Source: a virus. Taken from it: a stretch of DNA of 32,504 bases. The notes under the pieces are model-generated. The model saw only the letters and a list, made by a program, of their open reading frames with translations, ran no database searches and was not told the origin of the DNA. Numbering within the stretch: position 1 is the stretch's first letter; each line of letters opens with the position of its first letter. The stretch is taken from positions 1-32,504 of the IMG/VR virus record IMGVR_UViG_3300033148_002105. The stretch is one strand, 5' to 3'. Shown here piece by piece: positions 2,924-32,504 of this stretch. The translations under genes and the position numbers were made by a program.

Positions 2924-3472
2924 TTAATTTATTTTATTTAGTATAGAGCGTTTCACTTTCATATATTTTAAACGATTGTCAATATTCTTTATTTGGAAGA
3001 TATAATTATTCCTTTTATAATCATCTCCACCTTCTTCATGAGCTAGTTTTCTAAGTTCCATTTTAGACTTATTTAACGTAGCTATTATAAATTTTTCATC
3101 CTCATTAAATTCAACAATGCCTTTTATATAGTGAATAGATTTATTGTAATCAAATGTACGTGAATTATGTGTTTTATAACCTCTTGATTGAGTTAGCATT
3201 ATATAATACCCTTCATAATATTTCATCTCAGCTAAATCATTAGTGACTTTCAATACTTTAAATTCCCATCTATAAGGATTCAATGTAATGCTATCGTCTA
3301 ATGAAAAGTTAGAGTGATGGCTTTGTTCAAACATATTTGATTCTGCATTATAGTTATATCTACTTGACATTGATTTAGATGAGCCTATGTAAGCCTCTTT
3401 TAAAGTCTTGTTGTATATTATATAGACACTTGGCTTATCTGTTAATTCCGATTTGATTTTAATATTCTTCAT
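2924..3472 (-). CDS. GIY-YIG-fold protein (putative homing-type endonuclease)
   Basis: 182 aa. VYIIY at residues 16-20 and YIG at 28-30 match the two halves of the GIY-YIG signature. R38, E87 (in YYEGYYI) and N103 (GYKTHN) fall where the family's catalytic Arg, Glu and Asn lie. The C-terminal 75 residues are helical and Lys-rich, likely DNA-binding. It is only distantly similar to the two GIY-YIG proteins at 7426 and 12056 and lacks their NUMOD-like repeats. An early-type element (3482-3502) lies 9 bp upstream of the ATG. The last codons KIN and the TGA stop are followed directly by the next early-type element. Confidence 0.7.
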   Translation of the reverse strand: MKNIKIKSELTDKPSVYIIYNKTLKEAYIGSSKSMSSRYNYNAESNMFEQSHHSNFSLDDSITLNPYRWEFKVLKVTNDLAEMKYYEGYYIMLTQSRGYKTHNSRTFDYNKSIHYIKGIVEFNEDEKFIIATLNKSKMELRKLAHEEGGDDYKRNNYIFQIKNIDNRLKYMKVKRSILNKIN

Positions 3473-3702: not shown

Positions 3703-3721
3703 CTTTATATTATATATTCAG
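3703..3721 (-). promoter_or_regulatory. Early-type element without a following start codon
   Basis: Minus-strand CTGAATATATAATATAAAG. The TGA inside it is the stop codon of the 49-aa gene (3718-3720). Confidence 0.5.
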
Positions 3722-4410: not shown

Positions 4411-4448
4411 TAATACGAAGTGATAGAATGGTACAGGGATAATGTGTT
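4411..4448 (-). promoter_or_regulatory. Late-type control region of the endolysin (CGTATTA plus box c)
   Basis: On the minus strand the 22-bp box (4448-4427, AACACATT-ATCCCT-GTACCATT) is followed after 9 bp by CGTATTA (4417-4411), just before the ATG at 4404. Confidence 0.5.
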
Positions 4449-4644
4449 TGTAGATATTAATAAAGTTTAACTATGTATAAGTATAACTATATATAAGTAT
4501 AAAGTAACATTATCTTCTTATGTATCACCCACTTTTAAAATAAAAACAGCTGTGGCTCAATGATACCGTGCGTTACAGCGTATTTTAGAGGGTGCAGTAT
4601 ATGGACAAAACAACGTGAAAAATAAATTAATAAACTTTGCTAAA
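4428..4644 (-). repeat. Long inverted repeat, copy 1 (bidirectional control region)
   Basis: The reverse complement matches 19099-19310 with about ten substitutions, one single-base indel and one 6-bp indel (about 95% identical by eye). It fills the divergent gap between the endolysin (leftward) and the 4691 gene (rightward). Inside are an imperfect hairpin with a GCTGT/ACAGC stem and two imperfect ~16-bp direct repeats (TATACTTATATATAGT / TATACTTATACATAGT, read on the minus strand). No ORF is present. See the finding for the interpretation. Confidence 0.85.
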
Positions 4645-4663
4645 ATAGAAAAAATAAACAAAC

Positions 4664-4683
4664 TAAATATATAATATAAAAAG
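4664..4683 (+). promoter_or_regulatory. Early-type element
   Basis: TAAATATATAATATAAAAAG on the plus strand, 7 bp before the ATG at 4691. It has TAAATATATAAT in place of TGAATATATAAT. Confidence 0.55.
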
Positions 4684-4690
4684 AAACATT

Positions 4691-4996
4691 ATGACAAGAG
4701 AAGAATTTGACGAAAAGTTATTAGACACATTTAGTGTAAGTGAGATTGCCATTATTAACACTAACATATTTTATAATGAGGATCACAAGGAATATTTTAA
4801 TAAGTTCCATTCGAGAGAGTATGAATGGTGTTATGATTATTTAGTAGAACATAGAAAGTTATTAAGCTTATCTCATACTCCTAGTAAGTATAAAGATTAT
4901 GCGATTAAACTAATTGAAAATGCTAAAGTGTTATATCGTCATGAAGCAAGTATGAAAGAGGACAATAAACAAAAACTATCTACAATATCAAAGTAA
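4691..4996 (+). CDS. 101-aa protein of unknown function
   Basis: A soluble, helical and charged protein (MTREEFDEKLLDTFS...; WCYDYLVEHRKLLSL in the middle; a hydrophilic tail). No domain is recognised. It forms a transcription unit of its own: an early-type element 7 bp upstream and a strong terminator directly after the stop. It faces away from the endolysin across inverted-repeat copy 1, in the position the polymerase gene has at copy 2. That arrangement suggests an early, possibly regulatory or host-takeover role, which is inference only. Confidence 0.7.
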   Translation: MTREEFDEKLLDTFSVSEIAIINTNIFYNEDHKEYFNKFHSREYEWCYDYLVEHRKLLSLSHTPSKYKDYAIKLIENAKVLYRHEASMKEDNKQKLSTISK

Positions 4997-5087: not shown

Positions 5088-5666
5088 CTAAAACAGTGCA
5101 TTTGGAATGTTTGAAAGCGTTTTATGCTCTATGTTACTATCTTTTAAGAACTCTAACAGTATTTCATTGCCATCTATCTTATCTGCTATTTTCATATTTA
5201 TTTTAATTAAGTATCTGTTTAATGTTTGTCTACTTATTTTCAAGTACGTTTGCATTTCCATTTTAGATTTCTTTTCAACATATATCTTTTGAATTAAGAA
5301 TTGTTCCACTCTGGTCAATTCAGTTATTATATTTTTCAATTGGTATTTATAGTCTGTTTCTATTTCGTAATCCGTATCGAAGTGAGCATCATGTATATAG
5401 CCATTCTTACGTGAATAATCAGTATTTCTTTTCTTACGAGATTTCTCCCGTCTCATGTAATCTATTATATAATTCTTGCATATAGTTGTAAAGTAAGAAT
5501 GCCTTTTAGATAAATCTTTACTAGAATCGTAATTTCCTTTTGTCACTATTTTAATATACACTTCATTTATAATATCATCTGTCATGTTTACAAAGTGTGC
5601 GAATTTAGATTTTATAAATGGCGGCAGTATCGCTTGTAGTTTGTCATATATTTCAATTTCAGTCAT
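5088..5666 (-). CDS. Phage sigma-70-family (ECF-like) factor
   Basis: 192 aa from ATG at 5666; an in-frame TTG lies 6 bp further up. Numbering counts that TTG as 1. Residues about 31-83 fit region 2 (DDIINEVYIKIV ... SYFTTICKNYIIDYMRREKSRKK, the core-binding and -10 contact helices). Residues about 115-165 fit region 4 (LTRVEQFLIQKIYVEKKS then SRQTLNRYLIKINMKI, a helix-turn-helix). A short acidic linker joins them and no region 3 is visible. It should bind host RNA polymerase core and redirect it. Its own upstream region has an early-type element. Divergent from it, the terminase operon has a late-type element, so it is a good candidate activator of the late genes. Confidence 0.75.
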   Translation of the reverse strand: MTEIEIYDKLQAILPPFIKSKFAHFVNMTDDIINEVYIKIVTKGNYDSSKDLSKRHSYFTTICKNYIIDYMRREKSRKKRNTDYSRKNGYIHDAHFDTDYEIETDYKYQLKNIITELTRVEQFLIQKIYVEKKSKMEMQTYLKISRQTLNRYLIKINMKIADKIDGNEILLEFLKDSNIEHKTLSNIPNALF

Positions 5667-5676
5667 AATCAATCCT

Positions 5677-5695
5677 TTTTAAGTTATATATTCAC
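5677..5695 (-). promoter_or_regulatory. Early-type element (variant) for the sigma-like gene
   Basis: Minus-strand GTGAATATATAACTTAAAA, about 10 bp before the ATG at 5666. It differs from the others by a C in the second half. Confidence 0.45.
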
Positions 5696-7425: not shown

Positions 7426-8088
7426 ATGCGAACAGGTATAATATATATAGCAACTAATACCATTAATAATAAGGTTTATATAGGTCAAACTATTCAAGGA
7501 TTACAAAAAAGGAAGTCGCAGCATATTAAAAATGCAGTATCTAAATGTGACAATATGTATTTCCATAAAGCAATACGTAAATATGGTAAGGATAATTTTA
7601 AATGGGAAGTATTAGTAGACTGTCCTATTAGTGATTTAAATGATCAAGAAATATATTGGATTAAATACTGGGATAGTTTTGGCAAAAGGGGTTATAACTC
7701 AACTATTGGCGGAAGTTTAGGAGCGAATGGTTTCAAAGGTAGAAAGCATAGTATTGAAACAAAGCTATTGCTAAGCATTCGATCAAAAGAAGACGGTTAT
7801 GGTATGAGAGGAAAAAAACACTCTGCGCATTCAAGAAAAAAAATGTCAATACAGAAAAAAGGGAAGTTGCTATATAATGCTCATAAACAAAAGTTATCTA
7901 AGATTCGCCAAGGTATTAATAATCCTAATGCAGATAGCACTATTTATACATTTTATAACAAAGAATTAGATATTATAGAAAAATGCACTAGACTGGAATT
8001 GCAAGACAAATACGGGGTAAAATCACTAGGAGGATTATTTGCGACAAGAGTTCAAAAAACAGCTTATGGATGGAGTTTGCTTTATTAA
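7426..8088 (+). CDS. GIY-YIG homing endonuclease
   Basis: 220 aa. The GIY-YIG nuclease domain covers residues 4-95: GIIYIATN, VYIG (17-20), R29/H33, E75 in DQEIYWIKYW and N91 in GYNST. Two NUMOD3-like DNA-binding repeats follow (GFKGRKHSIETK at about 102-113, GMRGKKHSAHSRKKMS at 126-141). A C-terminal segment (about 172-220, TIYTFYNKE ... GLFATRVQKTAYGWSL) probably also contacts DNA. Such proteins cut intron- or gene-less alleles and spread themselves; this one is free-standing between terL and the connector gene. It has its own early-type element. Its last codons merge with the late control region at 8079. Confidence 0.9.
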   Translation: MRTGIIYIATNTINNKVYIGQTIQGLQKRKSQHIKNAVSKCDNMYFHKAIRKYGKDNFKWEVLVDCPISDLNDQEIYWIKYWDSFGKRGYNSTIGGSLGANGFKGRKHSIETKLLLSIRSKEDGYGMRGKKHSAHSRKKMSIQKKGKLLYNAHKQKLSKIRQGINNPNADSTIYTFYNKELDIIEKCTRLELQDKYGVKSLGGLFATRVQKTAYGWSLLY

Positions 8089-8140
8089 TATCTACAAACA
8101 CATAATCCCTGTACCATTATCAATACGTATTACTATAAAC
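8079..8140 (+). promoter_or_regulatory. Late control region, half-copy of the inverted-repeat module (box a plus ACGTATTA)
   Basis: From CTTTATTAATATCTACAAAC (8079) onward the sequence matches the right half of the inverted-repeat module at 19271-19325 almost base for base. It includes the 22-bp box (8097-8118, AACACATA-ATCCCT-GTACCATT) and ACGTATTA (8125-8132). It precedes the connector gene at 8154. The left half of the module is absent, replaced by the end of the GIY-YIG gene. Confidence 0.65.
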
Positions 8141-17606: not shown

Positions 17607-18890
17607 CTATTTCAATTCATAATCTTTATATCCGTGCTTTTCAAATTCTGCAATAACGGTTTCTAACATGAAGTCTTTGTCACTACTCTTAACATATAAA
17701 CTATCGTGACAGCTTAGACACCATTCAGTAGAAGATACATTTTTATAAGCTTCAATGAATATGGTTGCTTCATCTTTTTGCAACGTTAAAGGAAGATATT
17801 TTTTGTCAGTGCTTTTTATTTTATTAATCTCTTTATATACAGAAGGATATGCTTGCTTAAATACATTCAATAGAGCAGCTCCGCCATTTATACCTTTATA
17901 CATTACTTTTAAGAACTCAGGTTTGATATCATCTCTACTATCGAAGTATTCAATGCTTTTTTCACAAGATACTACTTTGCCGTGTTCTCTTTTCAATTTA
18001 TAACTTTGGAATGCATTATGACCATTCAGCGATACATATTCTTTTAATAATTCTGTATAAATATCTTTCTTAGTAACATCTTCATAGAACGTTTTAATAT
18101 TTTCATCTTCGCCGTTAGTTTTTAATAAGCGAGAAGCTAGGAAATAAGGCTGTGACGACTTTAAATCCGATTGGACTAGTGATTCTCCATTCACATAGCA
18201 AAAGCCTCTTAATTCTCTTTTAATAAGGTTAAACGTATGGAATATTCTGCCAGTTTTATTGTCTTCTACTATCACCCATTTCTTATCGTTCATATCATTT
18301 ATCATTCGTTGATATGTGTTATATTTGTGAGTGGCGAATGTGATGTCTGTATCGAAATAACCTTCTGTTACTAAGTTAGATAGCCATTTTATTGCAGATG
18401 GATAATCGAATTCTATTTGGTTTAACATTTTATATGCGCCCCAATGTTTTCTATCAAACTCGCTTCTATTGTATGAGCTTTTAATTTTCTTATATAAAGT
18501 TGAATTATTAGTCATTATGTATTCTTGGATAGTAAGCTCTTCTATTTCAACATCGTTTGCGAAATTCAATGCTATCCAATAGTCTTTTGATTTTTGCCCA
18601 ACTATATAACTATTATCAGTTTGAATTATACCTTTTTCTATAGATATGTCGATTATAGATTTGTAATGCCTCCAGCCTAATAAATTAGATATATACGATG
18701 CTTTTAATCTGGCTTTAATGTTTCTAAATGTTTTCTCTGGGTGAGACGTTGATTGCCTTTCTATTAGCTCATAGAACATATAGAATTTCTCTCTAGGAAG
18801 TTTCTTTGAATAATCGTTTTGAAGTAATTCATCCACTTTATTAATGAATGCTCTGCTGAATCGTGTTAATTTGTAATTTCTTTTTGACAT
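17607..18890 (-). CDS. Minimal family-A/T7-like single-subunit polymerase
   Basis: 427 aa. Polymerase motifs are visible in order: motif A with D242 in LVQSDLKSSQPYFLASR (242-250 core), preceded by RIFHTFNLIKRELRGF; a motif B-like segment KVMYKGINGG (328-337) followed by LNVFKQAYPSVYKEI; motif C CHDSLYV with H395/D396. The two aspartates D242 and D396 would bind the catalytic metals. The N-terminal 220 residues are helical; no 3'-5' exonuclease motifs are seen. T7 RNA polymerase also has HDS at motif C, so DNA synthesis, priming or RNA synthesis are all possible. It is the only polymerase in the genome. A structured leader and an early-type element lie upstream. Confidence 0.7.
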   Translation of the reverse strand: MSKRNYKLTRFSRAFINKVDELLQNDYSKKLPREKFYMFYELIERQSTSHPEKTFRNIKARLKASYISNLLGWRHYKSIIDISIEKGIIQTDNSYIVGQKSKDYWIALNFANDVEIEELTIQEYIMTNNSTLYKKIKSSYNRSEFDRKHWGAYKMLNQIEFDYPSAIKWLSNLVTEGYFDTDITFATHKYNTYQRMINDMNDKKWVIVEDNKTGRIFHTFNLIKRELRGFCYVNGESLVQSDLKSSQPYFLASRLLKTNGEDENIKTFYEDVTKKDIYTELLKEYVSLNGHNAFQSYKLKREHGKVVSCEKSIEYFDSRDDIKPEFLKVMYKGINGGAALLNVFKQAYPSVYKEINKIKSTDKKYLPLTLQKDEATIFIEAYKNVSSTEWCLSCHDSLYVKSSDKDFMLETVIAEFEKHGYKDYELK

Positions 18891-18942
18891 TTTAATTTTA
18901 ATTTATTTATACATCTTTTCATAATTGTTTTTTGTTTTAGAT

Positions 18943-19023
18943 GTATAGGAGGTGGCAATGAAAGGCCAACCCCCTTGTTTTTGGACACTCAGGGATCAAT
19001 CTGAATGTTTTGAAGTTCTATAC
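18943..19023 (-). ncRNA. Three-way-junction RNA in the polymerase leader
   Basis: Read on the minus strand: P1 GTATAG (19023-19018) pairs with CTATAC (18948-18943). P2 ACATTCAG (19008-19001) pairs with CTGAGTGT (18992-18985). P3 GGGGTTGGC (18973-18965) pairs with GCCACCTC (18956-18949), with one bulged T. P3 stacks directly on P1. Both non-Watson-Crick positions are G.U on this strand but A-C mismatches on the other, so the minus-strand RNA is the folded form. It is a GC-rich island in an AT-rich gap, between an early-type element (19061) and the polymerase ATG (18890). It does not fit the hammerhead or purine riboswitch consensus. Confidence 0.6.
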
Positions 19024-19026
19024 TTA

Positions 19027-19034
19027 TAATACGT
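19027..19034 (-). promoter_or_regulatory. Late-type ACGTATTA element, minus strand
   Basis: Minus-strand ACGTATTA followed by TAAGTATA, 4 bp upstream of the structured leader. Together with the early-type element at 19061 it suggests that the polymerase gene can be read in both phases. Confidence 0.4.
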
Positions 19035-19060
19035 TTTGAAATTAAAAAAGTTTAGTTCCT

Positions 19061-19079
19061 CTACATTATATATTCACTT
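19061..19079 (-). promoter_or_regulatory. Early-type element (variant) for the polymerase
   Basis: Minus-strand AAGTGAATATATAATGTAG, about 170 bp before the polymerase ATG. That is far more than the usual ~10 bp, and the space is filled by the structured leader. Here the element behaves like a promoter, since it is too distant to be a ribosome-binding signal. Confidence 0.5.
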
Positions 19080-19098
19080 AATTTAATTTTTTTACGTT

Positions 19099-19310
19099 TT
19101 TAGCAAAGTTTTTTAATTTATTTTTCATGTTGTTTTGTCCATAAACTGCACCCTCTAAAACACGCTGTAACGCACGGCATCATTGAGCCACAGCGTGTTT
19201 TTATTTTAAAAGCGGGTGATCCATAAGAAGATAATGTTACTTTATACTTATATATAGTTATACTTAGTTAAACTTTATTAATATCTACAAACACATAATC
19301 CCTATACCAT
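19099..19310 (+). repeat. Long inverted repeat, copy 2 (bidirectional control region)
   Basis: Matches the reverse complement of 4428-4644 at about 95%. The early-type side faces the polymerase and the late-type side faces the RusA gene, mirroring copy 1 (4691 gene and endolysin). This copy lacks 6 bp in the second of the two direct repeats (TATACTTA...). Confidence 0.85.
19157..19201 (+). terminator. Hairpin within the inverted repeat, terminator-like
   Basis: AAAACACGCTGT (19157-19168) pairs with ACAGCGTGTTTT (19190-19201), 12 bp. The 21-nt loop contains an inner GGC...GCC pairing, and the tail is T-rich (TATTTT). In copy 1 the inner pairing is kept (GGT...GCC) while the outer stem is partly lost. 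It may block read-through between the divergent halves. Confidence 0.55.
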
Positions 19311-19331
19311 TGCCAATCCGTATTACTGTTA
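19290..19331 (+). promoter_or_regulatory. Late-type control region of RusA (box b plus CGTATTA)
   Basis: Box AACACATA-ATCCCT-ATACCATT (19290-19311), then after 7 bp CGTATTACTGTTATA (19319 on), about 25 bp before the RusA ATG. Confidence 0.5.
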
Positions 19332-25113: not shown

Positions 25114-25380
25114 ATGGCAGTATCAGTAAATATAAATACTAATGACGTAATTTCATCTTATTCAAATGAGATAATAGCTAAACGTTTTGAAAATCAAACA
25201 CCTTTTGACTTTGCATTGACATATTTAGAGTATATTGAAGACATGTTTGAATTTTATAAGCAATTTAACATGGGAGATTACAACGATTTTTATAATGCTC
25301 AAGAATATAGAATAGTTAAATATATAAACCCTTTAGTATTAAATGGTTATATTGCTGCTACTAAAACAGAAAATATATAA
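25114..25380 (+). CDS. Duplicated small baseplate-region protein, copy 1
   Basis: 88 aa. About 65% identical by eye to the next gene: both start MA(V/I)S(V/I)NIN and share SSYSNEIIA(K/R)RFE(N/S)QTP, DFALTYLE and a QEYRI...YINPL block. A helical middle (YLEYIEDMFEFYKQFNMGDY) suggests a small alpha-helical protein. No family is recognised. It sits between wedge and fibre genes and could be part of the baseplate rim. Confidence 0.75.
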   Translation: MAVSVNINTNDVISSYSNEIIAKRFENQTPFDFALTYLEYIEDMFEFYKQFNMGDYNDFYNAQEYRIVKYINPLVLNGYIAATKTENI

Positions 25381-25392
25381 AAACAAATAGAA

Positions 25393-25707
25393 ATGGCAAT
25401 ATCAATAAATATCAATAGCAATAATAGCGTAAGTTCTTATTCAAATGAGATAATAGCTAGACGTTTTGAAAGTCAAACACCACTTGATTTTGCATTGACG
25501 TATTTAGAAAGAATTGAAGATATGTTTAAGTTTTATAGGCAATTTAAAATAGAGCAATACAATGACTTTTATGACGTTCAAGAATATAGAATAACTAATT
25601 ATATAAACCCATTGAGTAAAGAAGGATATATAGCTGCTACTAAAACAGATTATCTTGAATTATTTCCAAGTGATTTCAATTCGGATTGGAGTGATGACTT
25701 CTTTTAA
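25393..25707 (+). CDS. Duplicated small baseplate-region protein, copy 2
   Basis: 104 aa, a tandem paralogue of 25114-25380 starting 12 bp after its stop. It has a 15-residue acidic/aromatic extension at the C-terminus (LFPSDFNSDWSDDFF) absent from copy 1. The two would suit a hetero-oligomer or a stepwise replaced subunit. Confidence 0.75.
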   Translation: MAISININSNNSVSSYSNEIIARRFESQTPLDFALTYLERIEDMFKFYRQFKIEQYNDFYDVQEYRITNYINPLSKEGYIAATKTDYLELFPSDFNSDWSDDFF

Positions 25708-31684: not shown

Positions 31685-32504
31685 ATGGCAAGATCAGTTG
31701 ACACTCTGTTTCAATTAATGCAAACAGAAAAGAATACAATGTCTTATATAAAAGATAAGTTGACAAATCCAGATGGAACAACAACTATTAAGACAGAGCA
31801 AGAGTTACTTACTGAATTACAATCGACTAACCCAGTAGGTATTTGGAGACTTTGGCAGTTTTTAACAGCTGTTGAAATGAATTTCCTTGAACAAAATTGG
31901 GATGAGATTAGAACTGAAATTGAAGATATTAAAGCTAGTGCATTCATTGGTGGTAAAGAATGGTGGGTAGAAAAATGTGAGGAATGGCAAAACGGAGACT
32001 TTGTAATAATTGATCCAGATAACTATTCTATTCATTATGATATTATAGATGAAAATAAACAATTAATTAAACATGCAACTATTAGTGAAATTGGAGGCAA
32101 AGTAATATTAAAAGTTCAAAAAGAATATGAAACACCTATTAATTTATTATCAACAGCTGAATTAGAATCATTTACAAGTTATGTTAATAAAGTAAAATTT
32201 GCAGGAACAAGAATAAATATATGGAACTTTAATCCTGATTTATTACATTTGGAATACACAATATATTACGATCCATTAATAAATATATCTACTATAACAA
32301 CAAATGTAGAAAAAGTCATTGGGGATTATATACAAAACTTACCATTTGATAGTGAATTTAGTAAAACAGAATTGACAAACTTATTACAAGACGTCGAAGG
32401 CGTTATATCGCCAGTATTTACATTCGGTGAAGGAAAAACTGAAGGTGGTAATTACGTTGAATTTGATAATTACTATACGGGTATTGCAGGGTTTTGTGCA
32501 ATTG
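31685..32504 (+). CDS. Baseplate wedge (J-like) protein, 5' part
   Basis: Begins MARSVDTLFQLMQTEKNTMS and runs off the end of the window; it continues in frame at 1-167 for 290 aa in total. NPVGIWRLWQFLTAVEMNFL and KEWWVEKCEEWQNGDF match a protein repeatedly found in Bacteroidota phage baseplate modules. The later part (GTRINIWNFNPDLLHLEY, then VEKVIGDYIQNLPFDSEF) resembles the C-terminal region of J/gp47 wedge proteins. It would form the baseplate ring with the gp25-like protein. It is shorter than typical J (about 380 aa). No other J candidate exists in the genome. Confidence 0.7.
   Translation, partial: MARSVDTLFQLMQTEKNTMSYIKDKLTNPDGTTTIKTEQELLTELQSTNPVGIWRLWQFLTAVEMNFLEQNWDEIRTEIEDIKASAFIGGKEWWVEKCEEWQNGDFVIIDPDNYSIHYDIIDENKQLIKHATISEIGGKVILKVQKEYETPINLLSTAELESFTSYVNKVKFAGTRINIWNFNPDLLHLEYTIYYDPLINISTITTNVEKVIGDYIQNLPFDSEFSKTELTNLLQDVEGVISPVFTFGEGKTEGGNYVEFDNYYTGIAGFCAI
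32391..32504 (+). repeat. Terminal overlap, right copy
   Basis: Identical to 1-114; see that entry. Features in this stretch should be counted once. Confidence 0.95.

Follow-up and report, generated by a model that had tools for sequence, protein, structure and literature searches.

Upstream of the gene for a divergent family A-like polymerase in a phage genome, we identified a stretch of the minus strand (19059-18891) that is predicted to fold into successive hairpins between a promoter-like motif and the start codon, and the same order of motif, folded leader and gene recurs in two relatives of the phage. We tentatively propose, at a little less than an even chance, that this stretch would act in cis on polymerase expression as a structured 5′ leader to which a protein binds and thereby blocks initiation, the likeliest binder being the polymerase.

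Promoter-like motif and predicted hairpins of the leader

The DNA analysed here, referred to as the window, is 32,504 nt long (IMG/VR record IMGVR_UViG_3300033148_002105, positions 1-32,504). Its ends form an identical 114-nt terminal direct repeat (1-114 and 32391-32504), which makes it probable that the record is a complete genome, either circular or terminally redundant. The window also holds a tandem duplication across two adjacent small genes (25156-25370 and 25435-25649; 82% identical, spacing 279 nt).

The apparent phage promoter motif of the polymerase gene, TGAATATATAATGTAGA, lies at 19060-19076 on the minus strand. At least five genes of the window have its consensus, TGAATATATAATATAAA, 5-11 nt ahead of their ATG, and this recurrence and position suggest that the motif serves as a promoter. 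Two other copies depart from the pattern, one at 3720 with no close ATG and one at 2922 with only a very short reading frame downstream. The polymerase copy has two changes and stands 169 nt before the ATG. A copy at 5694 precedes a minus-strand gene (5088-5672) for a 194-aa protein with a weak match to PF07638 (ECF sigma factors; 22.0 bits against a cut-off of 21.1), which is possibly a phage-encoded sigma factor. The promoter-bearing region of the polymerase gene (19062-19311) is an inverted copy of 4427-4680, 89-97% alike, and the gene at 4691 behind that second copy has a short leader. A 55-nt piece of this inverted repeat of about 250 nt recurs at 8080-8134, and the repeat also carries a hairpin. 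By eye, both long copies contain an open frame for a peptide of 21-22 aa ending in FRGCS(L/I)WTKQ(H/R)EK, possibly a gene remnant.

Between the end of the motif and the ATG lies the putative transcript leader of 169 nt (18891-19059, minus strand), which folds better than all 200 of its shuffled versions (z = -3.57). Within it, an island of 81 nt (18943-19023) has a GC content of 44% compared with 15-18% in its flanks. The minus strand of the island has a minimum free energy (MFE) of -24.4 kcal/mol and a z-score of -3.26 against shuffles, while the plus strand does not fold better than shuffles (z = -0.87). Two hairpins form in the island with high predicted probability. Hairpin P2 (18985-19008, minus strand) pairs ACAUUCAG with CUGAGUGU around the 8-nt loop AUUGAUCC in 8 bp, including one G.U pair, with pair probabilities of 0.88-1.00. 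Hairpin P3 (18947-18975, minus strand) pairs AGGGGGU(U)GGC with GCCACCUCCU around the 8-nt loop CUUUCAUU in 10 bp, with one bulge and one G.U pair, and is present in both the MFE and the centroid structures. Downstream of these, hairpin P4 (18908-18947, minus strand) pairs UAUACAUCU with AGAUGUAUA in 9 bp around a 22-nt loop. Its probability is ~0.99, with 0.92-1.00 for the inner pairs, and a 9-bp hairpin of this kind arose in 0.75% of shuffled 3′ leaders. The likely fold of the window's leader, as modelled, is thus P2, P3 and P4 in a row.

Much of this had been anticipated in an earlier note on the same DNA. The early-type element that it placed about 170 bp upstream corresponds to the promoter-like motif, the GC-rich island in an AT-rich gap is real, and its helices P2 and P3 proved to be near-certain minus-strand hairpins; P4 had been missed. 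It also pointed out that G.U pairs on the minus strand become A-C mismatches on the plus strand, which holds for one pair in P2 and one in P3, but this asymmetry is weak evidence since the main stems of the leaders in the two relatives fold on both strands. The proposed architecture fared differently. The note had drawn a three-way junction spanning 18943-19023, with P3 stacked on a closing helix P1 of 6 bp (GUAUAG at 19023-19018 with CUAUAC at 18948-18943, minus strand). The pair probability of P1 is 0.05-0.16 when the island is folded by itself but drops to ~0 in the context of the whole leader; there P4, which competes for the 3′ strand of P1, is favoured by 6.8 kcal/mol. Shuffled flanks yield a 6-bp helix comparable to P1 by chance in 14% of cases, or 27% if G.U pairs are allowed. 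Because P1 loses to P4 and is at chance level, we reject the junction as the ground state. The relatives' leaders are structured, but in this set of three sequences they could not be aligned, and no three-way junction is evident in them.

The polymerase and its relatives

The gene downstream of the leader (17607-18890, minus strand) encodes a protein of 427 aa that matched nothing convincingly in Pfam, PHROG or NCBIfam. Since Pfam DNA_pol_A gave no match either, the protein is at most a divergent branch of family A, an assignment drawn from motifs and fold only. In an alignment of 7 homologues, residues D242, R319, K323, H395 and D396 are invariant, which we take to fit the motif A Asp, the motif B R-x3-K and the motif C His-Asp of family A, and in the window's protein and its two closest homologues an aromatic residue follows eight positions after the motif B Lys. 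An AF2 model of moderate confidence (pLDDT 72.8) has family A DNA polymerases as its best PDB matches (E = 8e-5, with low TM-scores of 0.3-0.4) and also matches a putative phage DNA polymerase I (E = 1e-13), in keeping with a palm fold. These motif and fold searches support the polymerase label given in the earlier note. Motif C reads HDS, a form associated with single-subunit RNA polymerases, so the enzyme could make either DNA or RNA. The gene is the only recognised replication gene, and the leader region lies next to it.

Apart from a copy nearly identical to the phage of the window, the viral collection contains two close homologues of the polymerase, in L007 (47% identity) and L008 (46%). 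Searches of that collection with the island DNA, proteins, alignments and back-translated motifs revealed only distant homologues beyond these. Phage records likewise held only distant homologues (22-27% identity), genome contigs gave nothing, and plasmids held no homologue.

In both close relatives the polymerase gene has a long leader, of 164 nt in L007 and 186 nt in L008, that is strongly folded (z = -4.85 and -4.30) and, as in the window, beats all 200 shuffles. When the 170-nt upstream regions of all genes were ranked by folding z-score within each genome, the polymerase leader came first of 39 in the window, first of 33 in L007 and first of 22 in L008, and with the comparison restricted to genes that have 100 nt or more of intergenic space, its rank was first of 11, 9 and 6, respectively. 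A promoter-like motif also precedes each leader. In L008 the motif TATACTTATATTAAAT stands 23-26 nt before three genes and 186 nt before the polymerase, and in L007 a like motif stands 164 nt before the polymerase, with no further copy found at other genes. As the same motif at other genes of the window and L008 lies mostly 5-26 nt from the ATG, the long leader is shared by the three phages and specific to the polymerase. With motif, length and best folding all recurring in both relatives, the earlier suggestion of a selected RNA leader directed toward the polymerase gains support.

All three leaders fold strongly, are alike in length and position, and carry apical hairpins whose loops are 8 nt long (CGUAGUAU in L007 and UGUGAGAG in L008). 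They share no sequence and no alignable fold, and a single conserved architecture is not demonstrated. Further out in the family, the top-folded-leader effect is absent from L010, whose polymerase is 28% identical to that of L007, and in L004, L009, L011 and L012 the polymerase starts at most a few tens of bases from the neighbouring gene, which leaves no room for a leader.

Other elements surround the polymerase genes of the two relatives. Downstream of the polymerase, L007:5390-5770 is a large folded non-coding element of nested long inverted repeats (AATCCATAAAGGATAAT with ATTATCCTTTATGGATT and CTTGTTACTTATGAT with ATCATAAGTAACAAG). The corresponding side of the gene in L008 (L008:2446-3719) is a very AT-rich, apparently non-coding stretch of ~1.27 kb, with a double hairpin at ~2510-2580 in which TTGTTGTCAGGGC and GCCCACAACAA enclose GGATAAATTTGCC and GGCATTTATCC. 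Each relative also has a small ORF immediately ahead of its polymerase leader (L008:635-961 and L007:3338-3649) that looks GIY-YIG-like by eye, and GIY-YIG or homing-endonuclease proteins are encoded in the window at 2924-3472 (minus strand) and 7426-8088 (plus strand).

Possible functions of the leader

From the order of motif, hairpins and gene we infer that 19059-18891 would be transcribed on the minus strand as the structured 5′ leader of the polymerase mRNA, presenting P2, P3 and P4 in succession and then a start region for translation that is AU-rich and left open, so that the default state looks translatable. In the window and in L008, pairing within the last 20 nt ahead of the polymerase ATG does not exceed that of shuffles. 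Most likely, a protein would then bind the hairpins and block translation initiation. The likeliest candidate for this role is the polymerase itself when idle from replication, which would perhaps amount to autogenous control, as in the phage T4 example considered below.

No terminator-like site was found in the leader, on which ground we rejected an attenuator, and this together with the open start in the window and L008 favours a binder over attenuation or plain sequestration. In L007, 0.79 of the AUG-proximal region is paired, and occlusion is significant in that leader alone, so we also rejected start-region occlusion as a general mechanism; given this difference, one mechanism common to all three phages is not certain. 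A cis-acting translational leader fits best with the lack of a terminator, the start open in two of three leaders, the gene-specific structure and the precedent of T4 gp43 (PMC3014915). Against it count the facts that only three diverged leaders are known and that these are not alignable, that the distant homologues in L004, L009, L011 and L012 lack the space for such a leader, and that the island ranks no higher than 26th of 864 windows across the genome.

The hairpins might instead be passive, with neither switch nor binder, and act only by making the mRNA more stable or by timing its processing. Such a role would suit leaders that fold strongly yet conserve neither sequence nor an alignable fold, and it would also suit the open start regions of the window and L008. 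However, the structure is confined to the polymerase although sister genes share the promoter motif, and we know of no reason for only the polymerase mRNA to need hairpins, so we regard a passive leader as unlikely.

We consider it distinctly unlikely that the region is instead a DNA replication element, that is, an origin or primer site for the polymerase with the hairpins acting as single-stranded DNA or in a primer transcript. The leader adjoins the only recognised replication gene in an AT-rich, repeat-bearing region, the stems of L007 and L008 fold equally well on both strands, and in the relatives the polymerase gene has large non-coding stretches with folded structure beside it. Yet the window's leader folds better on the transcript strand (z = -3.25 versus -1.64), no iterons were seen in it, and the structure is situated after the promoter and before the start codon in each of the three phages.

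Two further possibilities involve an exchange of pairings. The leaders of L007 and L008 resemble each other: in both, an 11-12 bp helix can close a hairpin of 12-14 bp, the 3′ internal loop complements the apical loop, and a second complementary copy lies further down. The probability of such a loop complement by chance is P = 0.00055 in L007, P = 0.006 in L008 and P = 0.43 in the window, values that are optimistic because the pattern was noticed before it was tested. The near copies follow only 1-3 nt after the stem, which is too close to pair with the full stem intact. On the window's value we rejected an H-type pseudoknot common to all three leaders, in which the 8-nt loop would pair with a site downstream. 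Scanning whole genomes for pseudoknots under lax criteria was not informative, as it gave about one match per kb and strand. These pairings could make the leaders a new class that switches polymerase synthesis through mutually exclusive helices sensed by the divergent family A-like polymerase, the exchange being between the apical 8-nt loop and its repeated downstream complements in L007 and L008, or between P1 and P4 in the window; we judge this to be improbable. A bistable switch, with mutually exclusive helices turning translation on or off according to a ligand or to the speed of transcription, seems more doubtful still. It would draw on the strand shared by P1 and P4, on the L007 closing helix with its two alternative 3′ partners (MFE -31.8 and -34.8 kcal/mol) and on the 7-nt loop complements of L007 and L008. 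However, P1 is at chance level, the window's loop complement is not significant, and neither a terminator nor an Rfam riboswitch was found.

There is a slim chance that the structure is accidental or not selected. The island ranked only 26th of 864 when 90-nt windows were scanned on both strands of the window genome, which means that other hairpins are stronger and that the island is not extreme as a structure, and alignable conservation among the leaders is lacking. The weight of the island rests on its recurrence before the same gene rather than on the strength of its structure: the leader is top-ranked in three genomes with polymerases that have only about half of their residues in common, and leader length and promoter order recur with it. 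Finally, retron RNAs serve their reverse transcriptases as template or primer, and the position of a folded RNA just before the gene of a divergent polymerase, along with the repeated loop complements of L007 and L008, might recall such a separate non-coding partner RNA, but this is very improbable as the three leaders have no common sequence or fold, the polymerase is family A-like and not a reverse transcriptase, and nothing terminates the RNA ahead of the gene.

Our preferred reading, a protein-bound translational leader, lends itself to direct testing as leader and gene form a compact pair, with the short-leader sister genes that carry the same motif as a built-in control.

Comparison with known leader RNAs

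Rfam identified only two tRNAs in the window. The island had no match at gathering or relaxed thresholds, its best matches being far below the gathering scores, and we did not identify any known RNA families in the relatives. With no covariance-model match, an Rfam riboswitch class was rejected. Purine riboswitches are built on a three-way junction, and the P1-P2-P3 arrangement drawn earlier, together with the exclusivity of P1 and P4, resembles an aptamer with its expression platform. Unlike purine-type riboswitches, however, the leader has no Rfam match, no support for P1, no terminator and, in the window, no sequestration of the start site.

The leader of T4 gene 32 contains a pseudoknot through which the single-stranded DNA-binding protein regulates its own synthesis. 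Like that leader, the one described here is a folded region before the start codon of a phage replication-protein mRNA; unlike it, a pseudoknot is unsupported in the window (P = 0.43), and the proteins are unrelated.

The closest parallel is the operator of T4 gene 43, whose product gp43 is a family B polymerase. To our knowledge, textbook cases of a phage replication polymerase controlling its own synthesis at the RNA level are limited to T4-type phages with such family B enzymes. The gene 43 operator of T4 and RB69 is one hairpin of 16-18 nt that has a -UAAC- loop and lies at a distance of about 40 bases from the AUG (PMC3014915). As in that operator, hairpins lie in the leader of a phage replication polymerase gene upstream of the start region, and the leader would be expected to set the amount of polymerase. 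The differences are that the window's enzyme is family A-like rather than of the gp43-type family B, that the loops differ among the three phages with no conserved loop of the -UAAC- type, and that the hairpins end further from the ATG, 58 nt upstream in the window, 73 nt in L007 and 79 nt in L008, with binding by the polymerase only putative here. Our best reading, by analogy, is that the window's leader may work like the T4 gene 43 operator without being a member of that class. If so, the presence of a comparable layout in unrelated phages, ahead of a divergent family A-like polymerase, would point to more than one origin of such control.
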